Shown here one piece after another: positions 3,999 through 29,300 of a stretch of 64,000 bases of DNA. How positions within the stretch are numbered: position 1 is the first letter of the stretch; each line of letters begins with the position of its first letter. The notes beneath the pieces are model-generated. The model ran no database searches. It saw only the letters and a program-made list of their open reading frames with translations, and was not told where the DNA came from. Location: contig CAIMRY010000030.1 of NCBI GenBank assembly GCA_903843965.1, positions 1-64,000 on the forward strand, given 5' to 3'. The translations under genes and the position numbers were made by a program. The DNA comes from an uncultured delta proteobacterium. GTDB taxonomy: Bacteria > Desulfobacterota > Desulfovibrionia > Desulfovibrionales > Desulfovibrionaceae.

Positions 3999-5153
3999 CT
4001 ACTTGTAGGCCGCGATGGCTGTCGACGCGATGAGGCTGCCCGCAGGGCAGAAGTCGAAGAGCACCTCCACCCGCGCAAACCCGGCGATTCGCAGCATGTC
4101 CATGAGGGCGCGGGTGTTGGCCGTCCATTTGCCGAAGCCCTTGTCCGAGAGCATCAGGATCGACGCGGGCTGGGCCGGGCGGGCTGGGTCGGCGGAATCG
4201 GCGGCCGCAAAGGGGTCAAACGGCGCGCAGCGCACGGTGCGGCCCGTGACGATGAGCAGCTCCCTGGTCATGGCGTGCAGCTTGCGCAGGCAGAAGAACG
4301 GGTCGCGCAGGTGGTAGTACAGGCCCAGGCACAGGGTCAGGTCAAAGGGGCCCAGGGCCTCGGCGTCCAGATCCTCCAGCCAGGAAGTCACGTACTTGAC
4401 CTTCGAGTTGTAGCGCCGGTGGGCGAAGTCGTAGCGCTTGAACTCGTCGCGGTCCAGCCAGCCCGGCCCCTCCACGCTCACCACCTCGGCCGCGCCACGG
4501 GCCTCGCACTCAAAGCTGTAAAACCCGTCCGAGGCGGCCAGGTCGAGCACGCGCTTGCCTGTCAGGTCCTTTGGCAGCTTGATCTGGTCCAGGAACTGGC
4601 AGGTCAAGACGCCCTTGACCGAGCGGGCGAACTGCCCCGGCCCCAGGGGCAGGGCGTGGAAAAAGCCGCCCAGCCCCGCCTGCGGCCACTGCGCGGTTCC
4701 GGGCTCCAGGGGCGGCAGCTCCGCGGCCCGGGCCGCCAGGGCCGAAAGCCGCGCCGCATCCTGCCAGTATTCGCGGATGGTGTCGGCCAGGACAAAGGCC
4801 GCACCCGGCCCGAGCTGTTCGGCAAGCCCGGCGCGCATGGCCTGGAAGTGCTCGGAGGAGGTGACGACCACGAGGTCCACGCCCAGGGCCGGGAGCTCCT
4901 CCGGCGCATGGACCTTGAAGCCCTGCTGGCTCAGGCCCTGCTTGGCGGGGTCGCGGTCGGCCAGGCCGACGATTTTGCCGAGCAGCGGGCTTGCGCTTGC
5001 GCGCAGGAAGCCAAGGAAGTAGTCCGCGCCGCTGGCTGCGGGGTAGACCAGGACCCTGCGCGCGCCCAGCAGGCTCTCGATGCCCACGAACTCAACGAAC
5101 TCGATGTGCCGACCCCTGTTCTGTCCCGTGTCCTGTTTCGTGTCCTGTCCCAT
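3999..5153 (-). CDS. Class I SAM-dependent methyltransferase, substrate unknown
   Basis: A 384-residue protein. The N-terminal third (residues 25-135) resembles a Rossmann nucleotide-sugar or oxidoreductase fold, with GARRVLVYPAASGADYFLG and later VDLVVVTSSEHF. The C-terminal half is a methyltransferase with motif I VLDLAASDGFYSFECEARGA near residue 205, an acidic VVSVEG, and a later FDLTLCLGLYYHLRDPF, which resembles the CmoB-like group. The base sequence around the start is repetitive (TGTCCTGT and TGTCCCGT variants, 5117-5155), so the first 15 or so residues are uncertain. It ends 30 bp from the NeuB-like gene, so a role in surface sugar modification is possible but unproven. Confidence 0.75.
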   Translation of the reverse strand: MGQDTKQDTGQNRGRHIEFVEFVGIESLLGARRVLVYPAASGADYFLGFLRASASPLLGKIVGLADRDPAKQGLSQQGFKVHAPEELPALGVDLVVVTSSEHFQAMRAGLAEQLGPGAAFVLADTIREYWQDAARLSALAARAAELPPLEPGTAQWPQAGLGGFFHALPLGPGQFARSVKGVLTCQFLDQIKLPKDLTGKRVLDLAASDGFYSFECEARGAAEVVSVEGPGWLDRDEFKRYDFAHRRYNSKVKYVTSWLEDLDAEALGPFDLTLCLGLYYHLRDPFFCLRKLHAMTRELLIVTGRTVRCAPFDPFAAADSADPARPAQPASILMLSDKGFGKWTANTRALMDMLRIAGFARVEVLFDFCPAGSLIASTAIAAYK

Positions 5154-5307
5154 GCCCCGTCCTCATGTTTCACCGGCTGGCCTGGCCGCGTGGACCAACC
5201 TGATCGTAACGCCTGGCCGCGCATGATAGGCGAGGGGCCTGGCAATGACAATGGCCAGGCGGGGCTGATGCCCGCAAGACAGCCGCCCCGAGCCCTGCAA
5301 ATTCTGT

Positions 5308-5337
5308 TTGCAGGCCGCGCAGCCTTGCAGATAGAGT
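5308..5337 (+). promoter_or_regulatory. Putative promoter of binding-protein gene 1
   Basis: TTGCAG (5308-5313) and TAGAGT (5332-5337) are 18 bp apart. The same arrangement, in a closely similar 40-base stretch, stands before the paralogous gene at 6214. The retained similarity outside the coding region supports a functional promoter. Confidence 0.4.
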
Positions 5338-5360
5338 GGGGGCGACGTGAAGGAGCATTC

Positions 5361-6125
5361 ATGCGCTTGACCACCTGCCTGCTATGTCTGTGCCTCGCCC
5401 TGCCGGTGTGCTCGCCAGGGGCCGAAACGCTGGTGCTCAACACCTCCCACGACCCGCCGCGCTCCCGGCCAGACGGCGGCGGCTACGAGGACCGCATCGT
5501 CGCCGAGGCCTTCCGGCGCATCGGCCTGGGCACACGCCTGGTCCACCTGCCCTCGGAGCGGGCCTTGCAGAACGTCAACCAGGGCATCGACGACGGCAAC
5601 TTCTCCCGCGTCGCCGGGCTCGCGGCCCAGTACCAGAATCTGGTCATGGTGCCCGAACCCGTTGACGAGTTCCTGTTCACCGCGTTCACCAGGGATACGT
5701 CCATCCATGTGCAGCGCTGGGAGGACCTCAAGCCCTTCAACGTGGGCCTCATCACCGGTTGGAAGATCGTGGAGGCCAACACCAGGGACGCGCGCTCCGT
5801 AACCACGGTCAAGGACGAGGAGGCCTTGTTCGCCCTGCTGGACCGTGGCCGCGCCGACGTCGTTGTGGCGGACCTGTATTTCGGGCAGGAGCTGCTCCGC
5901 AGCAAGAGCTACCAGGGCGTGCGCGCCTTAAGCCCGCCCCTGGAACGCCGCAACATGTATCTCTACCTGAACAAGCGCCACGCCGACCTGGCCCCCAGGC
6001 TGGCCGCAGCCCTGCGCGAGATGAAGCGCGACGGAACCATGGAGCGCCTGACCAAGGCCGGACCGGCTCTGGACCGGCGAAAAGAAGAACGGAAGGAAGG
6101 GCGCGCCTCCACGGCGGCGGAGTGA
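5361..6125 (+). CDS. Periplasmic solute-binding protein, family 3 type (paralog 1)
   Basis: A 254-residue exported protein. ATG at 5361 follows AAGGAG. Residues 1-20 form a signal peptide (MRLTTCLLCLCLALPVCSPG). The mature part begins AETLVLNTSHDPPRS and has the two-lobe extracellular binding fold of amino-acid ABC receptors: YEDRIVAEAFRRIG, RALQNVNQGIDDG, LKPFNVGLITGWKIVE and a closing MKRDGTMERL. No ABC permease is present. The gene heads a run binding protein, binding protein, sensor kinase, response regulator, so it probably senses a ligand for the kinase. The C-terminal tail (RRKEERKEGRAS) is unusually basic. Ligand unknown. Confidence 0.8.
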   Translation: MRLTTCLLCLCLALPVCSPGAETLVLNTSHDPPRSRPDGGGYEDRIVAEAFRRIGLGTRLVHLPSERALQNVNQGIDDGNFSRVAGLAAQYQNLVMVPEPVDEFLFTAFTRDTSIHVQRWEDLKPFNVGLITGWKIVEANTRDARSVTTVKDEEALFALLDRGRADVVVADLYFGQELLRSKSYQGVRALSPPLERRNMYLYLNKRHADLAPRLAAALREMKRDGTMERLTKAGPALDRRKEERKEGRASTAAE

Positions 6126-6213: not shown

Positions 6214-6948
6214 ATGCGCGTGGCGCCGTTCCTGCTGAGTCTGTGCCTCACCCTGCCGGTATGCGCGCACGGAGCCGAGACCTTGGTGCTCAGCACCTCC
6301 TCCCGAGCGCCGCGCTCCCTGGAGAACAGCGCGGGCACCCAGGACCGCATCGTCCTGGAGGCCTTCCGCCGCATAGGCGAGCAGGTCCAGATAGTCCACC
6401 AGCCACCGGAGCGGGCTCTGGTCAACGTAAGCGAGGGCCTCCTCGACGGCGACTGCTGGCGCGTCAGCGGACTTGCGGCGCTGTACCCGAACCTGGTCCA
6501 GGTCCCCCAGCCCGTGGACCAGGTCCAGATCAAGGTCTTCACCAGGAACCCGGCCATGCGCATCTCCTCCTGGGCCGACCTCAAGCCGTACAACGTGGCT
6601 TTCATCAACGGCTGGAAGATCCTGGAGGCCACGGTTCAGGGCACGCGCTCCCTGACCAAGGCCAGGGACATCGACGCACTGTTCGCCCTGCTGGACAAGG
6701 ACCGCGTCGACGCCGCGCTGGTGGACCCGGTCATGGGCCAGGAAGCCCTGCGGCGCAGGCACATCCAGGGCATCCGCATCCTGGAGCCACCCCTGACCCA
6801 GCAGGACATGTACATCTACCTGAACAAGCGCCACGCGGCCCTTGTGCCCAAGCTGGCCCAGGCCCTGCGCGAGATGAAGCGCGACGGCGCCATGGAGCGC
6901 CTGACCAAGGCCGGGCTGACGACCGGGCTGACGGAGGAAGGCAGATGA
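6214..6948 (+). CDS. Periplasmic solute-binding protein, family 3 type (paralog 2)
   Basis: A 244-residue paralog of the preceding gene. Signal peptide MRVAPFLLSLCLTLPVCAHG is followed by AETLVLSTSSRAPRS. Shared motifs include QDRIVLEAFRRIGEQ, LKPYNVAFINGWKILEA and MKRDGAMERLTKAG. Its stop overlaps the kinase start (ATGA at 6945-6948), so the two are translationally coupled. This supports a receptor role for the binding protein in signalling rather than uptake. Ligand unknown; the binding residues differ from paralog 1, so the two may report different compounds. Confidence 0.82.
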   Translation: MRVAPFLLSLCLTLPVCAHGAETLVLSTSSRAPRSLENSAGTQDRIVLEAFRRIGEQVQIVHQPPERALVNVSEGLLDGDCWRVSGLAALYPNLVQVPQPVDQVQIKVFTRNPAMRISSWADLKPYNVAFINGWKILEATVQGTRSLTKARDIDALFALLDKDRVDAALVDPVMGQEALRRRHIQGIRILEPPLTQQDMYIYLNKRHAALVPKLAQALREMKRDGAMERLTKAGLTTGLTEEGR

Positions 6949-9900
6949 ACGGCGCGCTTCTGCGGGTGCAAAAGCCCCTAACCATACGCCTGCTCAAGCG
7001 CGTGCTGCTCTTCAGCGGCGTGCTCATCGTGCTCCTGGCCGGGGCGCGCACCTGGTGGGAGTATCAGGCCACCCTGGACTCCGTGCAGGAGGAGTTCGAG
7101 GTCATTGAAAGCGCCAAGGCCCAAAGCGTGGCCGCCTCGCTCTGAGATTTCGACCGCGAGCAGCTGACCCTGCACACCGAGGGCATCCGCCACTTCCGGC
7201 ACATCTCTTACGCCGCCGTGCGCGACCGTTCCGGCGTCGTGGCCTGGTCCGGGGTGCGCAGGTCAACCGGCGTGCTGGACCGGGAGTTCCCGCTGTTCAT
7301 CGTCTACAACGGCCAGCGCCAGGAACTGGGCGTGCTGGAGGTCCAGGCCGACCTGGCCGCCCTGCGGCGGTTCGCGTGGAGCACGGCCCTGCGCATCCTG
7401 GCCCTGAACGCCGCCCTGGTGCTTCTGGTGGCGGGGCTGGTGTTCTGGCTCACCAGCAGCATGATCTCGCGGCATCTGGCGGCCATCGCCGCGCACCTGA
7501 GCGCCTACAGCCTGGGCGGCGACAACAAGCCCCTGGCCCTGGACAAGAAATCCGCCGGCGACGAGCTGGACGTGCTGGCCAGCGCCCTGAACACCATGCA
7601 GGACGGGCTCTCCGCCTCCTACGGCCAGGTGCTTGCGGCCCAGGCCGAGGTGCGCAGCATGGCCCGCTTCTACCAGGAGGACCCAAGCCCGGTGCTGCGC
7701 GTCGGATCCAGCGGGCAGCTGCTCATGGCCAATCCGGCCAGCGCGGAGCTTTTGGCCCACCTTGGCGTGCAGCTGGGGCAAAAGCTGCCACAGGACTACT
7801 CCGCCGTGGTCTCCCGCTCGCTGGCGAGCGGGGAGGTGCAGCAGTTCGAGATCGGCCTGAGCGCCCAGGCCTTCGCCTTCATTGTCCGGCCGCTGCCCAC
7901 GGAGGGGTTCGTCAACATCTACGGGCTGGACATCTCCAAGCGCAAGGCTGCGGAAATCGCCCTGCGCAAGAGCGAGAAGACCTTCAGGGCCATGGTCGAG
8001 ACCATCCCGCTGGCCATCTATCTGTCCACCGGGGCTGACCAGGTCTCCCACTACGCGAACCTGGCCTTCACAAGGCTGTTCGGCTACACTCTGGACGAGG
8101 TCCCGACCGTTGCGCACTGGTGGCCGCTGGCCTATCCCGACCCGGAATACCGCCGCCAGGTCATGGAGGAATGGACCCGCAGGGTGAGGCTCACCATCGA
8201 GACCCAGGCGCCCCTCGACCCCCTAGAGGTGGTCTGCACCTGCAAAGACGGTTCGGAAAAAGTCATTTCCTGGGGCTACATAACCCTTGACGGCACGAAC
8301 TACGCCTATGGCCTGGACCTGACCCAGCGCAAGCGCGCCGAGGAGGCGCTGAAACGCCAGGTCCTGGCCCTGACCCAGCCGTTGGAGAACCAGGCGGACA
8401 TCCGCTTTGCCGATCTCTTCAACCTGGAGGACATCCAGCGCATCCAGGACACCTTTGCCGAGTCCATGAACGTGGCCTCCATCATCACCAGCCCGGACGG
8501 CACGCCCCTGACCCGTCCGAGCAACTTCTGCCGGCTCTGCCGCGACGTGATCCGCAAGACCGAGAAGGGCCTGGCCAACTGCTGCGCCTCCGACGCGTTG
8601 CTTGGCCGCTACAACCCGGACGGCCCGAGCATCCGGCCCTGCCTGAGCGGGGGGCTGTGGGACGCGGGGGCCAGCATCACCGTGGGCGGCCAGCACATCG
8701 CCAACTGGCTCATCGGCCAGGTGCGCAACGAGGCCCAGGACGAGGCCGCCCTGCTGCGCTATGCCGAAGACATCGGCGCGGACAAGGACGCCTTCCGGGC
8801 CGCCCTGGCCGAGGTCCCGGTCATGCCCCTGGAACAGTTCGAGCGGGTGGCCAAGGCGCTGTACCTCCTGTCCTCCGAGGTCTCGCTGCGGGCCTACCAG
8901 AACGCGCAGCAGGCCCGCTTCATCCACGAGCGCCAAAAGGCCGAGGACGAGGTGCGGCGCAACAACGTCCGGCTGCAGTGCCTGGTGCGCGTGCTGCAGC
9001 ACAGCTCCGCAGCCGTGGCGGAATTCCTCGACTTCAGCCTGACCGAGGCCCTGACCCTGACCGAAAGCCGCTACGGCTACCTCTACCACTACGACGAAGA
9101 GCGCCGGGAATTCACGCTCAACTCCTGGTCCGGCGAGGTCATGCGCGAGTGCGCGGTCAAGGAGCCGACCACGGTGTATGCCCTGGACCATACAGGCCTC
9201 TGGGGCGAGGCCGTGCGCCAGAGAAGGCCCATCATCGTCAACGACTTCCAGGCCGCCAACCCGCTCAAGCGCGGCTACCCCGAAGGCCACGTGGAGCTGG
9301 CCAACTTCATGACCGTGCCCGTGTTCCAGGGCGGACGCATCGTGGCCGTGGCCGGGGTGGGCAACAAGGACGACGGCTATCACGACGCGGACGTGGTCCA
9401 GCTGTCCCTGCTCATGGACGCCTGCTGGCAGGTTGTGGGCCGCCTGAACGCCGAGGACAACGTGCGGCGCGAGCGCCTCTTCGCCGACGCCCTGTTGGAC
9501 AGCGTTCCCGGCCTGGTCTACCTCTACGACGACCAGGGCCTGCTGGTGCGCTGGAACAAGTCGCACGAGGAGATCACGGGCTACTCCCCGGAGGAGCTCT
9601 CGCACATGCGCCTGCTCGACTGGTACCGGGACGACCCCCTCACCATCGAGCGGATCTCCAAGGCCATCGAGCGGATCCACCAGGACGGCGCTGGCGCCGA
9701 GGAAGCCCTGCTGCAAACCAAGGACGGCCGCCGCATCCCCTTCTATTTTTCCGCCGTGTCTATGGAGATCGAGGGCCGCAACTACTTCACGGGCATCGGC
9801 ATCGACATAACCGAGCGCAAGCGGGCCGAGGAAGAGGTGCGCCGCTCCCTGCACGAGAAGGAGATCCTGCTCAAGGAGATCCACCACCGGGTGAAGAACA

Positions 9901-10460
9901 ACCTGCAGATCATCTCCAGCCTGCTCTTTCTCCAGGCCGAGTACATCATTGAGCCCCTGGACCGGGCCATGTTCGACGAGAGTCAGAAGCGCATCTCGGC
10001 CATGGCCCTGGTGCACGAGGAGCTGTACGGCTCCGCCGACCTGTCCAGCGTGGGCATGGGCGACTATGTGTCCCGGCTGGTGGACCGCGTGGCCGCCAGC
10101 GCGGACGTGCCCGTGCGCGTGGAGTTCGATGTGGAGGACATGCGGCTGCCGGTCACCCAGTCCATCCCCTGCGGGCTGATCTTGAACGAGATGGTGATGA
10201 ACGCCGTGAAGCACGCCTTCCGCAACGGGGGCGAAGGCCGCCTGCGCGTGTCCCTGGCCCGCAGGGACGGGCAGGTGGAGTTGTTCGTGGAGGACAACGG
10301 GCCGGGCCTGCCCCAGAGCTTCGACCTGGAGAATCCGGCCACCCTGGGCCTGACCCTGATCACCAGCCTGGCCCGGCAGCTGGCCGGAACCATCACGGCG
10401 CAAAACCTGGAGGGGGGGGCGCGCTTCACCCTGCTCTTTCCTGCGGACGAACGGGGATAA
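6945..10460 (+). pseudogene. Multi-sensor histidine kinase (PAS-PAS-PocR-GAF-PAS-HisKA_2) with in-frame TGA
   Basis: A 1171-residue membrane kinase interrupted once, by TGA at codon 67 (7143-7145). The frame is the same on both sides: AQSVAASL, stop, DFDREQLTLHT. Related sensors have Trp here (SLWDFD), so TGG has become TGA. Order: membrane segment (15-40), short periplasmic loop, second segment (146-172), HAMP-like region, PAS (about 240-330), PAS (342-460), PocR-type ligand domain with a Cys-rich CRLCRD...NCC patch (482-662), GAF (685-832), PAS (846-962), HisKA_2 with EIHHRVKNN (phospho-His near 980) and an ATPase with EDNGPGLP. If the stop is real, only a short N-terminal peptide is made unless translation restarts, for example near 7218. 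Confidence 0.8.
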
Positions 10461-10466
10461 GCGGGG

Positions 10467-10841
10467 ATGAGCGAGGCTTTGACCTTTCTCGTAGTGGAGG
10501 ATGAACGCATCATCTCCCTGGCCATGGGCATGCACATCCGCAACCTGGGGCACAGGGTGGGGGCCAGCGTGTCCACCGGCGAGGACGCCCTGGCGGCGCT
10601 GGCCAGCGTGCAGCCGGATCTGGTGCTCATGGACATCCAGCTGGAGGGCGAACTGGACGGCATTGAGACGGCCCGGCGGATGATGGAGCAGGGCGGCCCG
10701 CCCGTGGCCTACGCCACGGCCTACAACGACGCCGAGACCCGCGCCAGGGCGAGGGCGACCAGGCCCCTGGCCTTTTTAGTCAAGCCCGTGGGCCCAAGCG
10801 AGATCAAGGCCCTGGTGGAGCGCCTGCAGTCCCGCGCCTAA
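10467..10841 (+). CDS. Single-domain response regulator (CheY-like receiver)
   Basis: A 124-residue receiver with no output domain. It shows the acidic pair VVEDE (residues 10-13), the phospho-acceptor Asp56 in LVLMDIQLEGELDGIE, and Lys in FLVKPVGPSEIKALVERL. The LMDIQLEG..DGIETA wording is typical of regulators paired with HisKA_2 (LytS/PdtaS-like) kinases. It starts 6 bp after the kinase gene, so the two form an operon. Without an output domain it may act as a phospho-relay or by protein contact. Confidence 0.88.
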   Translation: MSEALTFLVVEDERIISLAMGMHIRNLGHRVGASVSTGEDALAALASVQPDLVLMDIQLEGELDGIETARRMMEQGGPPVAYATAYNDAETRARARATRPLAFLVKPVGPSEIKALVERLQSRA

Positions 10842-26385: not shown

Positions 26386-26581
26386 AGGAATTTGGTCGGG
26401 TGGGACAAGCGTCCTGCCCGGCTTTTTCGCGTGCGCCTAAATCCTGTCAACCCGCTCTTTTTGTCCTTTTACCGGCCAAAAACAGGGTAATTTTGTCCGG
26501 GCCAAAAACCCCATGGTACGCTTCTCCAATTTGCGTTCGGCGTTGTGCCGGACTCATAAACCCCTTGGGAGGAAGTGTACC
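26386..26581 (+). promoter_or_regulatory. Leader of the Rhs gene
   Basis: The region holds an imperfect direct repeat, CCGGCCAAAAACAGGG (from 26471) and CCGGGCCAAAAACCCC (from 26498), and a possible promoter, TTGCGT (26531-26536) with CATAAA (26555-26560) 18 bp on. GGGAGGAAG then precedes ATG 26582 by about 6 bases. The ribosome site argues that the short Rhs protein is really made from this start. Confidence 0.4.
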
Positions 26582-27900
26582 ATGCCGACATCACAAAACA
26601 ACCCGTCCCCGTCCCTCTCCCTCAAACGCGACCCGCAGGGCCGCATTGCCGAACGCGTTCTCCATCTGAATGGCCGCCTGGGCGACAGCCTTGAAACCCG
26701 GTGCTACGCCTACGACTCCGCCGGGCGCTTGTCCCGCGTCACGGACGAACGCGGCAACCTGTGCGAGTCCTACCAGTACGACCACCAGGGCCGCCGACTG
26801 GCCGAGATCAACCCCCTGCGCTTTCGCGGCGAACGGCGCTATACTTACTTGGCGAACAACCGCCTGGGCCAGGCGGGTCAAGCCCAGTACGGCCACGACA
26901 GGGCGGGCTTCCGCAACCTCAAGCTGGAAGGCGACGCCGAGACGCACTACCGCTACGAGCCCTCGGGCCTGCTGCTGACGGTGAATTTGCCGGATGGCCG
27001 CCGTATCGACTACGCGTACGACGAAAACGGCCTGCGCACCGCGAAGCGCGTGGACGGGCGCGTGGTCGAGGCCTTTCGCTGGCTCGACCCGCTGCGGCTG
27101 GAGGAATTCCACGACGGGCGCGAGTGGTGGCTGTTCGCCTACTCGGAAGGCCGCACGCCCGTGGGCCTGACCAATGGCAGGGACGCCTACCTGCTGCTCT
27201 GCGACCAGCTCGGCACGCCGCTGGCCCTTGCCACCACGGATGGCCATGTTGTACAGGCCATGCAATACGATTCGTTCGGCAACCTGCTCTCGGTCCGAGG
27301 CAACGTGGTGCGGCTGCCGCTGGGCTTCGCGGGCGGCCTGTACGACGCGGACACGGGCCTGACGCGCTTCCCCTGGCGCGACTACGACGCGGACACCGGG
27401 CGGTTCACGGCGCTCGACCCGCTGCGGGAGAAGGGCGGCGACAAGGACTGGTACGGGGCTACTGCGTTGATGATCCGGTCAATCGGGTGGATGTGTGGGG
27501 GTTGAGCGCGATACCCATGCCGGGACCGTTTCCGATTCTGGTGCCCCCGGTGGCCATCCCCGGCACACCGGAAAATGATGACTTCACCAAGGGAACTGTC
27601 GATATCCTCAACGGCATTGGGGATTTCTTTGGTGGACTGTTCGGCGGCGATGAAGCCCCGATCGACCCAAACACATATGAAACAGAACACACAAAGAACT
27701 CACGCCCGTCGACCGAAGAAGCTCACGAAAACGGGCAGGCCAGAAAACAGAAGGACCAAGGAAAGGAAAAGAAGGAGATTAATGGCAGATACAAAGTTAA
27801 TCCCAACAAACGAAGGAAACAACAAAGTGACCTTGGCTTCCCTGACGACTATGGCATAGCGGCGTTTGACACAAGAGACGATGACGAGGAGGCTGCATAA
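26582..27900 (+). pseudogene. Short Rhs-core protein with frameshifted C-terminal toxin tip
   Basis: The start frame (26582-27505) gives 307 residues of YD repeats (CYAYDSAGRLSRVTDERGN and CESYQYDHQGRRLAEI) and the Rhs core end: SFGNLLSVRG, PLGFAGGLYDADTGLTRF and PWRDYDADTGRFTALDPL. Normal Rhs proteins exceed 1,000 residues and carry a delivery domain; here there is none. In the core end, TACGGGGCTACTGC (27456-27469) has two extra G compared with TACGGCTACTGC in every other copy, so translation leaves frame just before CVDDPVNRVDVWGL. The out-of-frame tip continues to 27900: a Pro-rich linker, then HTKNSRPSTEEAHENGQARK and a Lys-rich basic end. Toxin type not recognised. Confidence 0.78.
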
Positions 27901-28484
27901 TGGGACCGTTTGACAAGATGCTGCGGCATGGCCTGCAACACGAGAATGCTGTGAGCGTCCACTATGACAAGAGCGACTACACTGCCGTGTTTTGCGGCTA
28001 CATCGACAGCCTCAACGAGCACGAGTGCAGACTGCGCATGCACAGACGATATGGCATGGCGGACGGCTGGCGCGCTTTCCGCCTAGAGGATGTCATATTT
28101 CTTGAAATCAACGGGCAATATGAACACCGGCTTGCCTACTTCGCCTCCCTTGGAGACCACCAGTTTCCCTTTCCGCAGCTAGGCCAGATCAAGGATGGTT
28201 CCATCATCCAAGGCACACTGCGCCAAGCCAAGGAACTCGGTCTGTTTGTCTCCATCCGGATGGATGCGGACAATTACCAGCTCAACGGCTTCGTGCAGTC
28301 CATCTCCGATGAGACCGTCACAATCATGGACCACGACCCCTTCGGCCTGCCAACGGGTGAGGCTGTTGTCCCTCTTGACGAGGTGTTTTACGTCATCTGC
28401 GGGTCCATGGAGTGCCAACGCACCCAGCATCTCGTCGAACACCAGCAGGAATTCCTGGAATTCCGCAAGCAGCAGACCCAGTAG
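27900..28484 (+). CDS. Putative immunity protein of the Rhs main-gene tip
   Basis: A 194-residue soluble protein. Its ATG overlaps the toxin stop (TAATG, 27898-27902), the usual coupling of toxin and immunity genes. Two similar halves, VHYDKSDYTAVFCGYIDSLN (about 19-38) and SIRMDADNYQLNGFVQSISD (about 117-136), each followed by a short strand region (EDVIFLEING and LDEVFYVICG), suggest a repeated small-beta-barrel fold (Sm/Hfq-like or ribosome-maturation-like). No family recognised; the immunity role rests on position. Confidence 0.65.
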   Translation: MGPFDKMLRHGLQHENAVSVHYDKSDYTAVFCGYIDSLNEHECRLRMHRRYGMADGWRAFRLEDVIFLEINGQYEHRLAYFASLGDHQFPFPQLGQIKDGSIIQGTLRQAKELGLFVSIRMDADNYQLNGFVQSISDETVTIMDHDPFGLPTGEAVVPLDEVFYVICGSMECQRTQHLVEHQQEFLEFRKQQTQ

Positions 28485-28523
28485 CACCGCCCATTCGCAA
28501 ACGAGCCCCGGCCTGGCCCCACC

Positions 28524-28937
28524 ACCGGCCTGACGCGCTTCCCCTGGCGCGACTACGACGCCGACACCGGGCGCTTCACCGCACTCGACCCCTTGCGGGA
28601 GAAAGGCGGCGACACGGACTGGTACGGCTACTGCGTCGATGATCCGGTCAACCGGGTGGACGTGTTGGGGCTATTCTCGTGGAACGACGTCAAGTCCGCC
28701 GTCGATCCCACCACCATTGGGAATATCATCTCCAATGGAGCCACTGCGGTGACCAAGCTGGTGGCGGACAAGGGCCTCATTGGCCCACTTGTCTCCAAGG
28801 GTCTAGGCTGGATCACTGCACCGCTGGGTGACTTTATCTCCCCGGACAACGCCAGCGGCGTATATGAAGAGACAAAGGAATACTGGGACAAGCGTAACAG
28901 CCGAAGCGAACCTGATGACCTGAGAGACCAGCATTGA
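28524..28937 (+). CDS. Orphan Rhs C-terminal tip, cassette 2 (type A)
   Basis: The frame opens inside the Rhs core end (TGLTRFPWRDYDADTGRFTA to DPVNRVDVLGL) with no start codon of its own before ATG 28593. The unique tip is about 85 residues: FSWNDVKSAVDPTTIGNIIS, a hydrophobic middle (LIGPLVSKGLGWITAPLGD) and KEYWDKRNSRSEPDDLRDQH. The same tip, frameshifted, recurs at 32654-33019. The hydrophobic helix and its membrane-protein partner suggest action on membranes; inference. Probably silent unless recombined onto the Rhs gene. Confidence 0.62.
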   Translation, partial: TGLTRFPWRDYDADTGRFTALDPLREKGGDTDWYGYCVDDPVNRVDVLGLFSWNDVKSAVDPTTIGNIISNGATAVTKLVADKGLIGPLVSKGLGWITAPLGDFISPDNASGVYEETKEYWDKRNSRSEPDDLRDQH

Positions 28938-28973
28938 GGCTGGGAAACTGGCTACTTTAAATCGGAGGTATCA

Positions 28974-29300
28974 ATGGCATGGACCTTTGGTGACTTTGCC
29001 CGACTGGGGGCTCTGCTCGCAATAGTCCTTGCAGCCGTCGCGATCACCGAGCGTAGCAGGGCTGCGAGCAAACTCCCCACACGCGAATATTCCTTCCGCG
29101 CCGTGTGGAAGATGCTCGGATGCGGCATCCTGGTCGCAACCACCTTGACAGGCCTCATCTATGTCTGGACCGATTCCGCTGACACCGCCATCTGCCTTGG
29201 CGGGATCATGATCGGAATCATGCTCGTTGGTAGTCTGCGCGAGTTCTTCTATGCATATCAACGTAAACGAGACGGGGCCATTAACCTCGACAAGCAGTAA
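28974..29300 (+). CDS. Putative membrane immunity protein, cassette 2 (type A)
   Basis: A 108-residue protein with three membrane segments (about 8-26, 45-66 and 71-93). GGAGGTATC precedes the ATG. A close paralog is at 33054, in both cases directly after the same toxin tip (shared: YSFRAVWxxxGxxxLVA, LGGIMIG, LVGSLR). The constant pairing of tip and membrane gene in two cassettes is good evidence for toxin/immunity partners. It is followed by a GCCCCGGC...GCCGGGGC hairpin (29309-29340) that runs straight into the next Rhs fragment. Confidence 0.68.
   Translation: MAWTFGDFARLGALLAIVLAAVAITERSRAASKLPTREYSFRAVWKMLGCGILVATTLTGLIYVWTDSADTAICLGGIMIGIMLVGSLREFFYAYQRKRDGAINLDKQ

Follow-up and report, generated by a model that had tools for sequence, protein, structure and literature searches.

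A sensor histidine kinase gene in the window (the whole stretch of 64,000 nucleotides that was analysed, from a genome of sulfate-reducer type) is interrupted at codon 67 by an in-frame TGA, at a position where relatives carry a conserved Trp, with the rest of the gene open and no recoding signals in what was searched. The best reading, to which we give a probability of roughly 0.56, is a recent nonsense mutation that leaves a 66-residue fragment, with a base-call error as its main rival. From the sequence and its relatives we infer that the base is real, that the change is recent and that the function of the kinase would be lost.

The interrupted kinase gene

The locus comprises the following features, all on the forward strand of the window.

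6214-6948, +, intact gene, probably for a substrate-binding protein, overlapping the kinase start (ATGA)
6945-10460, +, interrupted sensor histidine kinase gene (translation, and Pfam on the read-through frame)
6945-7142, +, 66-codon fragment 5′ of the stop, holding the first membrane helix (by eye) and the start of CHASE5
7062-7361, +, periplasmic CHASE5 domain, interrupted by the TGA (50.4 bits in the family-genome search, cut-off 27, one stop inside)
7143-7145, +, in-frame TGA at codon 67, Trp in relatives (translation and alignments)
10467-10841, +, intact single-domain response regulator (Pfam 65.1 bits, cut-off 30.2)

On translation the kinase frame runs from ATG 6945, which has a ribosome site of the GGAGG type before it (duplex energy -9.5 kcal/mol), to TAA 10458-10460 with a single interruption. 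The initial annotation had described a TGA as codon 67 within SL-stop-DFDREQ in an otherwise open gene, and this was confirmed, with the TGA lying at 7143-7145 in frame with the start (residue context AASL-stop-DFDREQ) and followed by 1,104 open codons up to the TAA, such that read-through gives one protein of 1,171 residues. Pfam analysis of the read-through frame identified CHASE5 (40-139, spanning the stop) and, downstream of the stop, PocR, GAF, PAS, HisKA_2 and HATPase_c domains, with CHASE5, HisKA_2 and HATPase_c all over the Pfam cut-offs (45.4 vs 27, 90.1 vs 22.3 and 42.5 vs 26.4 bits, respectively) and the HisKA_2 and ATPase motifs judged by eye to be intact. That these domains are all in the same frame indicates one gene rather than two. 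A further PAS-type domain is likely between CHASE5 and PocR; PAS_8 (Pfam) and TIGR00229 (NCBIfam) each match two stretches of the kinase. The openness of the frame is in itself weak evidence, since the DNA is GC-rich and an antisense ORF of 776 codons overlies the same gene, and it is on the evidence of domains and relatives that the claim of an interrupted gene appears solid.

No second copy of the kinase was found, the genome having one CHASE5 match and no near-identical DNA elsewhere. Searching a plasmid collection with the kinase gene gave two records, each matching no more than 2% of the gene, and a search of the whole window against Rfam at gathering scores gave no match.

Conservation of the locus and of the Trp codon

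That Trp is the residue to be expected at codon 67, as had been proposed from the sequence of the window, is borne out by the relatives. Trp is aligned with codon 67 in all 12 same-genus loci examined, the sample covering 12 of the 14 further members of the genus among 59 genomes (all but G007 and G014) and the 12 relative loci (L039-L050) comprising clear orthologues together with more distant copies. In a wider CHASE5 search of 119 family genomes, its own included, 30 matches were obtained in 28 genomes and the codon-67 column was W in 25, Y in four and a stop in one, with seven of the 30 rows in this count under Pfam's cut-off. The only match with a stop inside CHASE5 was the window's kinase. 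A scan of named genomes, which may omit records very near the window's own, found one same-genus kinase and one distant match.

The domain content (CHASE5, PAS, HisKA_2 and HATPase_c) is that of CHASE5-type HisKA_2 sensor kinases, and the gene neighbourhood is also of a kind seen in relatives. Upstream of the kinase, nine of the 12 relative loci have homologues of the 6214-6948 gene (substrate-binding type), and eight of the 12 have a response regulator homologue close to the kinase. The label given to the 6214-6948 gene is a weak one, with no Pfam match and a single NCBIfam match of 22 bits against a cut-off of 312. In the nine loci the homologues are present as one to three tandem genes, as far as the flanks reach, and the ORF at 4275-6125 of the window has a C-terminal module homologous to the 6214-6948 gene. 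What sets the window's kinase apart from CHASE5-type kinases is that its CHASE5 domain is split by a stop and that its middle of PocR, GAF and PAS modules is absent from shorter relatives. This middle is variable among relatives, with both ends of the protein (CHASE5 and kinase) being kept, and eight aligned kinases ranged in length from 549 to 1,242 residues, gap filler being included in the longest.

Two relatives show apparent changes of frame. In the G005 orthologue (L040) the frame changes at codon ~204, at a run of seven A that by eye lies ~30 codons past the second membrane helix; the change may reflect slippage, a genuine frameshift or an error in the homopolymer. The apparent frameshift in G003, the nearest relative, falls at a run of 23 N and for this reason was not counted as damage.

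Rates of change in the kinase gene were compared over 483 of its 1,171 residues, in a single alignment whose join in G005 is imperfect. Residues unique to a lineage numbered 33 for the window's own and 26 for G003 (483 columns), and at columns invariant across five outgroup genes departures numbered 12 of 232 for the window's own lineage and six of 232 for G003. As judged from this comparison there is no clear sign of long decay; the figure of 12/232 vs 6/232 would be slightly over expectation for a very recent event, the difference being small.

In-frame stops elsewhere in the genome

A codon-based scan for stops was made over 464 kb, consisting of the window plus 20 further stretches of 20 kb each. 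The scan demands 40 open codons on each side of a stop together with good scores and is therefore blind to frameshifts of any kind and to stops close to the ends of genes. It returned 20 stops with coding-like flanks, most of which, judged by eye and not by homology, are the end of one gene followed by the next. Besides the stop at 7143, one was clearly intragenic, a TAA at codon 233 of a Peripla_BP_6 protein in the same genome.

G000 contig C7, 46306-47469 (L154 6306-7469), minus strand, periplasmic binding protein gene with an in-frame TAA (stop scan)

A full-length copy of this gene, 83-94% identical, is present in 12 of the 14 other genus members, with Tyr at the position of codon 233 in all 12 of these copies. 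The presence of a second conserved gene bearing a nonsense change indicates that one-base nonsense changes occur in this genome and are not peculiar to the kinase or to TGA; such changes may be real losses or wrong bases. A third row of the scan, at 28482 of the window, lies beside RHS-like sequence. In this region (26513-29100) an RHS-repeat ORF at 26513-27505 is succeeded by an unrelated-looking ORF ending at TAG 28482-28484, after which there is by eye an RHS-like end fragment.

Alternative explanations for the stop

The initial annotation had offered four readings of the TGA, namely a recent nonsense mutation, a sequencing error, read-through and a restart of translation, and among these the nonsense mutation is the best supported. 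A base-call or consensus error in the draft assembly of 46 contigs, with the gene intact in the organism, is a possible explanation at well short of even odds. The TGA is one substitution from the conserved codon, the remaining gene is open and well kept, and the second nonsense change also affects a strongly conserved gene by one base. In addition a search of the assembly gave no 16S rRNA, as would fit a metagenome bin, which is a weak point given that five of 14 control genomes were also without a match. However, substitution errors are rare in consensus sequence, and a single stop in the 400 kb taken blindly would, on a rough and uncomputed estimate, need tens of wrong bases there, in an assembly with a completeness of 100 and a contamination of 0.06.

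A genome with selenocysteine machinery and in-frame TGAs in its fdhA genes invites a recoding story, but the tests of hairpin, tRNAs and relatives point away from it. Both SelB (388.8 bits, cut-off 242.25) and tRNA-Sec (82.9, cut-off 47) are present, and an in-frame TGA occurs in two of the three formate dehydrogenase genes (fdhA) over the cut-off, in each case with a strong hairpin of nine pairs after it (42-base folds of -13.4 and -14.7 kcal/mol). The kinase resembles these selenoprotein genes in having an in-frame TGA in an open frame, but in a test with these two fdhA genes as positive controls no Sec-type hairpin (bSECIS) was found after the kinase TGA (-7.2 kcal/mol), and the folds of four stretches after it were no better than those of shuffled sequence (z-scores -0.30 to 0.33). 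Likewise the kinase relatives have Trp or Tyr rather than Cys, with no Cys at the stop column among the 29 other CHASE5 matches. Selenocysteine was rejected on the lack of a hairpin of the fdhA type, and that the TGA encodes it is extremely improbable. TGA is the stop codon most often misread as Trp, in keeping with the suggestion that it is read through at a useful level, either by mispairing of tRNA-Trp or by a suppressor. Against this, an ARAGORN scan of the stretches around 44 tRNA matches and of the tRNA-Sec stretch found, within an incomplete tRNA set, a single tRNA-Trp with anticodon CCA and a sole TCA anticodon, that of tRNA-Sec, with no tRNA-Trp having a UCA anticodon. The set found is without, for example, tRNA-Ile GAT, in line with the missing 16S rRNA, so that a suppressor may have been missed. 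An altered code or suppressor tRNA was rejected, with no sign of either among the tRNAs of this incomplete set, and a Trp-reading suppressor is unlikely. A stop was present in none of the 29 other CHASE5 matches, and useful read-through, which gained no positive support from the tRNAs or the hairpin search, is very improbable.

The remaining reading is that translation restarts at codon 239 or 250, before PocR, to give a soluble kinase uncoupled from periplasmic sensing. The best candidates for such a restart are as follows.

7659-7694, +, ATG 7659 (codon 239) and GTG 7692 (codon 250), with a Shine-Dalgarno (SD)-like stretch before each

The PocR, GAF, PAS and kinase domains are all downstream of both candidate starts, and the SD-like stretches have energies of -7.2 kcal/mol before ATG 7659 and -10.3 kcal/mol before GTG 7692, the latter ranking at the 1st percentile among 2,000 positions drawn at random from the gene. 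Twenty in-frame starts were scored for ribosome sites, such that one at the 1st percentile is unsurprising. The nine in-frame starts at codons 92-173 scored -1.5 to -5.3 kcal/mol, the true start having -9.5, on a measure that separates poorly given that six control gene starts ranged from -2.2 to -9.5. The SD-like stretches were also compared in nine of the 12 relative loci, all without the stop (L039, which has a gap there, L048 and L050 being left out). At the codon-239 site the nine relatives gave -2.5 to -10.3 kcal/mol, with five of the nine at -7.2 or stronger, and at the codon-250 site -1.0 to -9.5 kcal/mol, with eight of the nine at -5.9 or stronger, making the window's own codon-250 stretch the strongest of the ten compared. 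A start codon (ATG) is present at the codon-239 site in one of the nine and GTG at the codon-250 site in eight. Since SD-like stretches are common to most relatives that have no stop, they mostly predate it. Both candidate sites are more than 500 bases beyond the stop, and a sigma-70-type scan of 7100-7800 found no promoter-like site. The strong codon-250 stretch apart, a restart gained no support specific to this genome, and we regard it as unlikely. Slightly less probable again is the suggestion that the stop is a tolerated switch, in which periplasmic sensing is shed and a soluble PocR/GAF/PAS kinase made from codon 239 or 250 feeds the response regulator.

Expected consequences of the proposed nonsense mutation

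In the preferred reading, a single-base nonsense mutation would have turned the conserved Trp codon of CHASE5 into TGA, recently in the lineage or in the sequenced clone. Translation from ATG 6945 would then end at 66 residues, covering one membrane helix and the beginning of CHASE5, such that the cell would have no kinase or only the traces that an occasional read-through or restart might yield. The flanking upstream gene and the downstream response regulator are both still open. The gene is similar to known nonsense-interrupted bacterial genes (pseudogenes) in being single-copy and open apart from a single in-frame stop at which relatives have a sense codon, and nothing was found to set it apart from them, with little other decay visible. 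On the sequence evidence it is most likely an ordinary loss of function, or a wrongly called base, and not a novel reading of the code. Literature searches on the matter returned no papers, which is not evidence that none has been published.

The main value of the interrupted kinase is as a caution. Should the TGA be genuine, this strain has probably lost a conserved sensing system, and otherwise the assembly contains errors in conserved genes.
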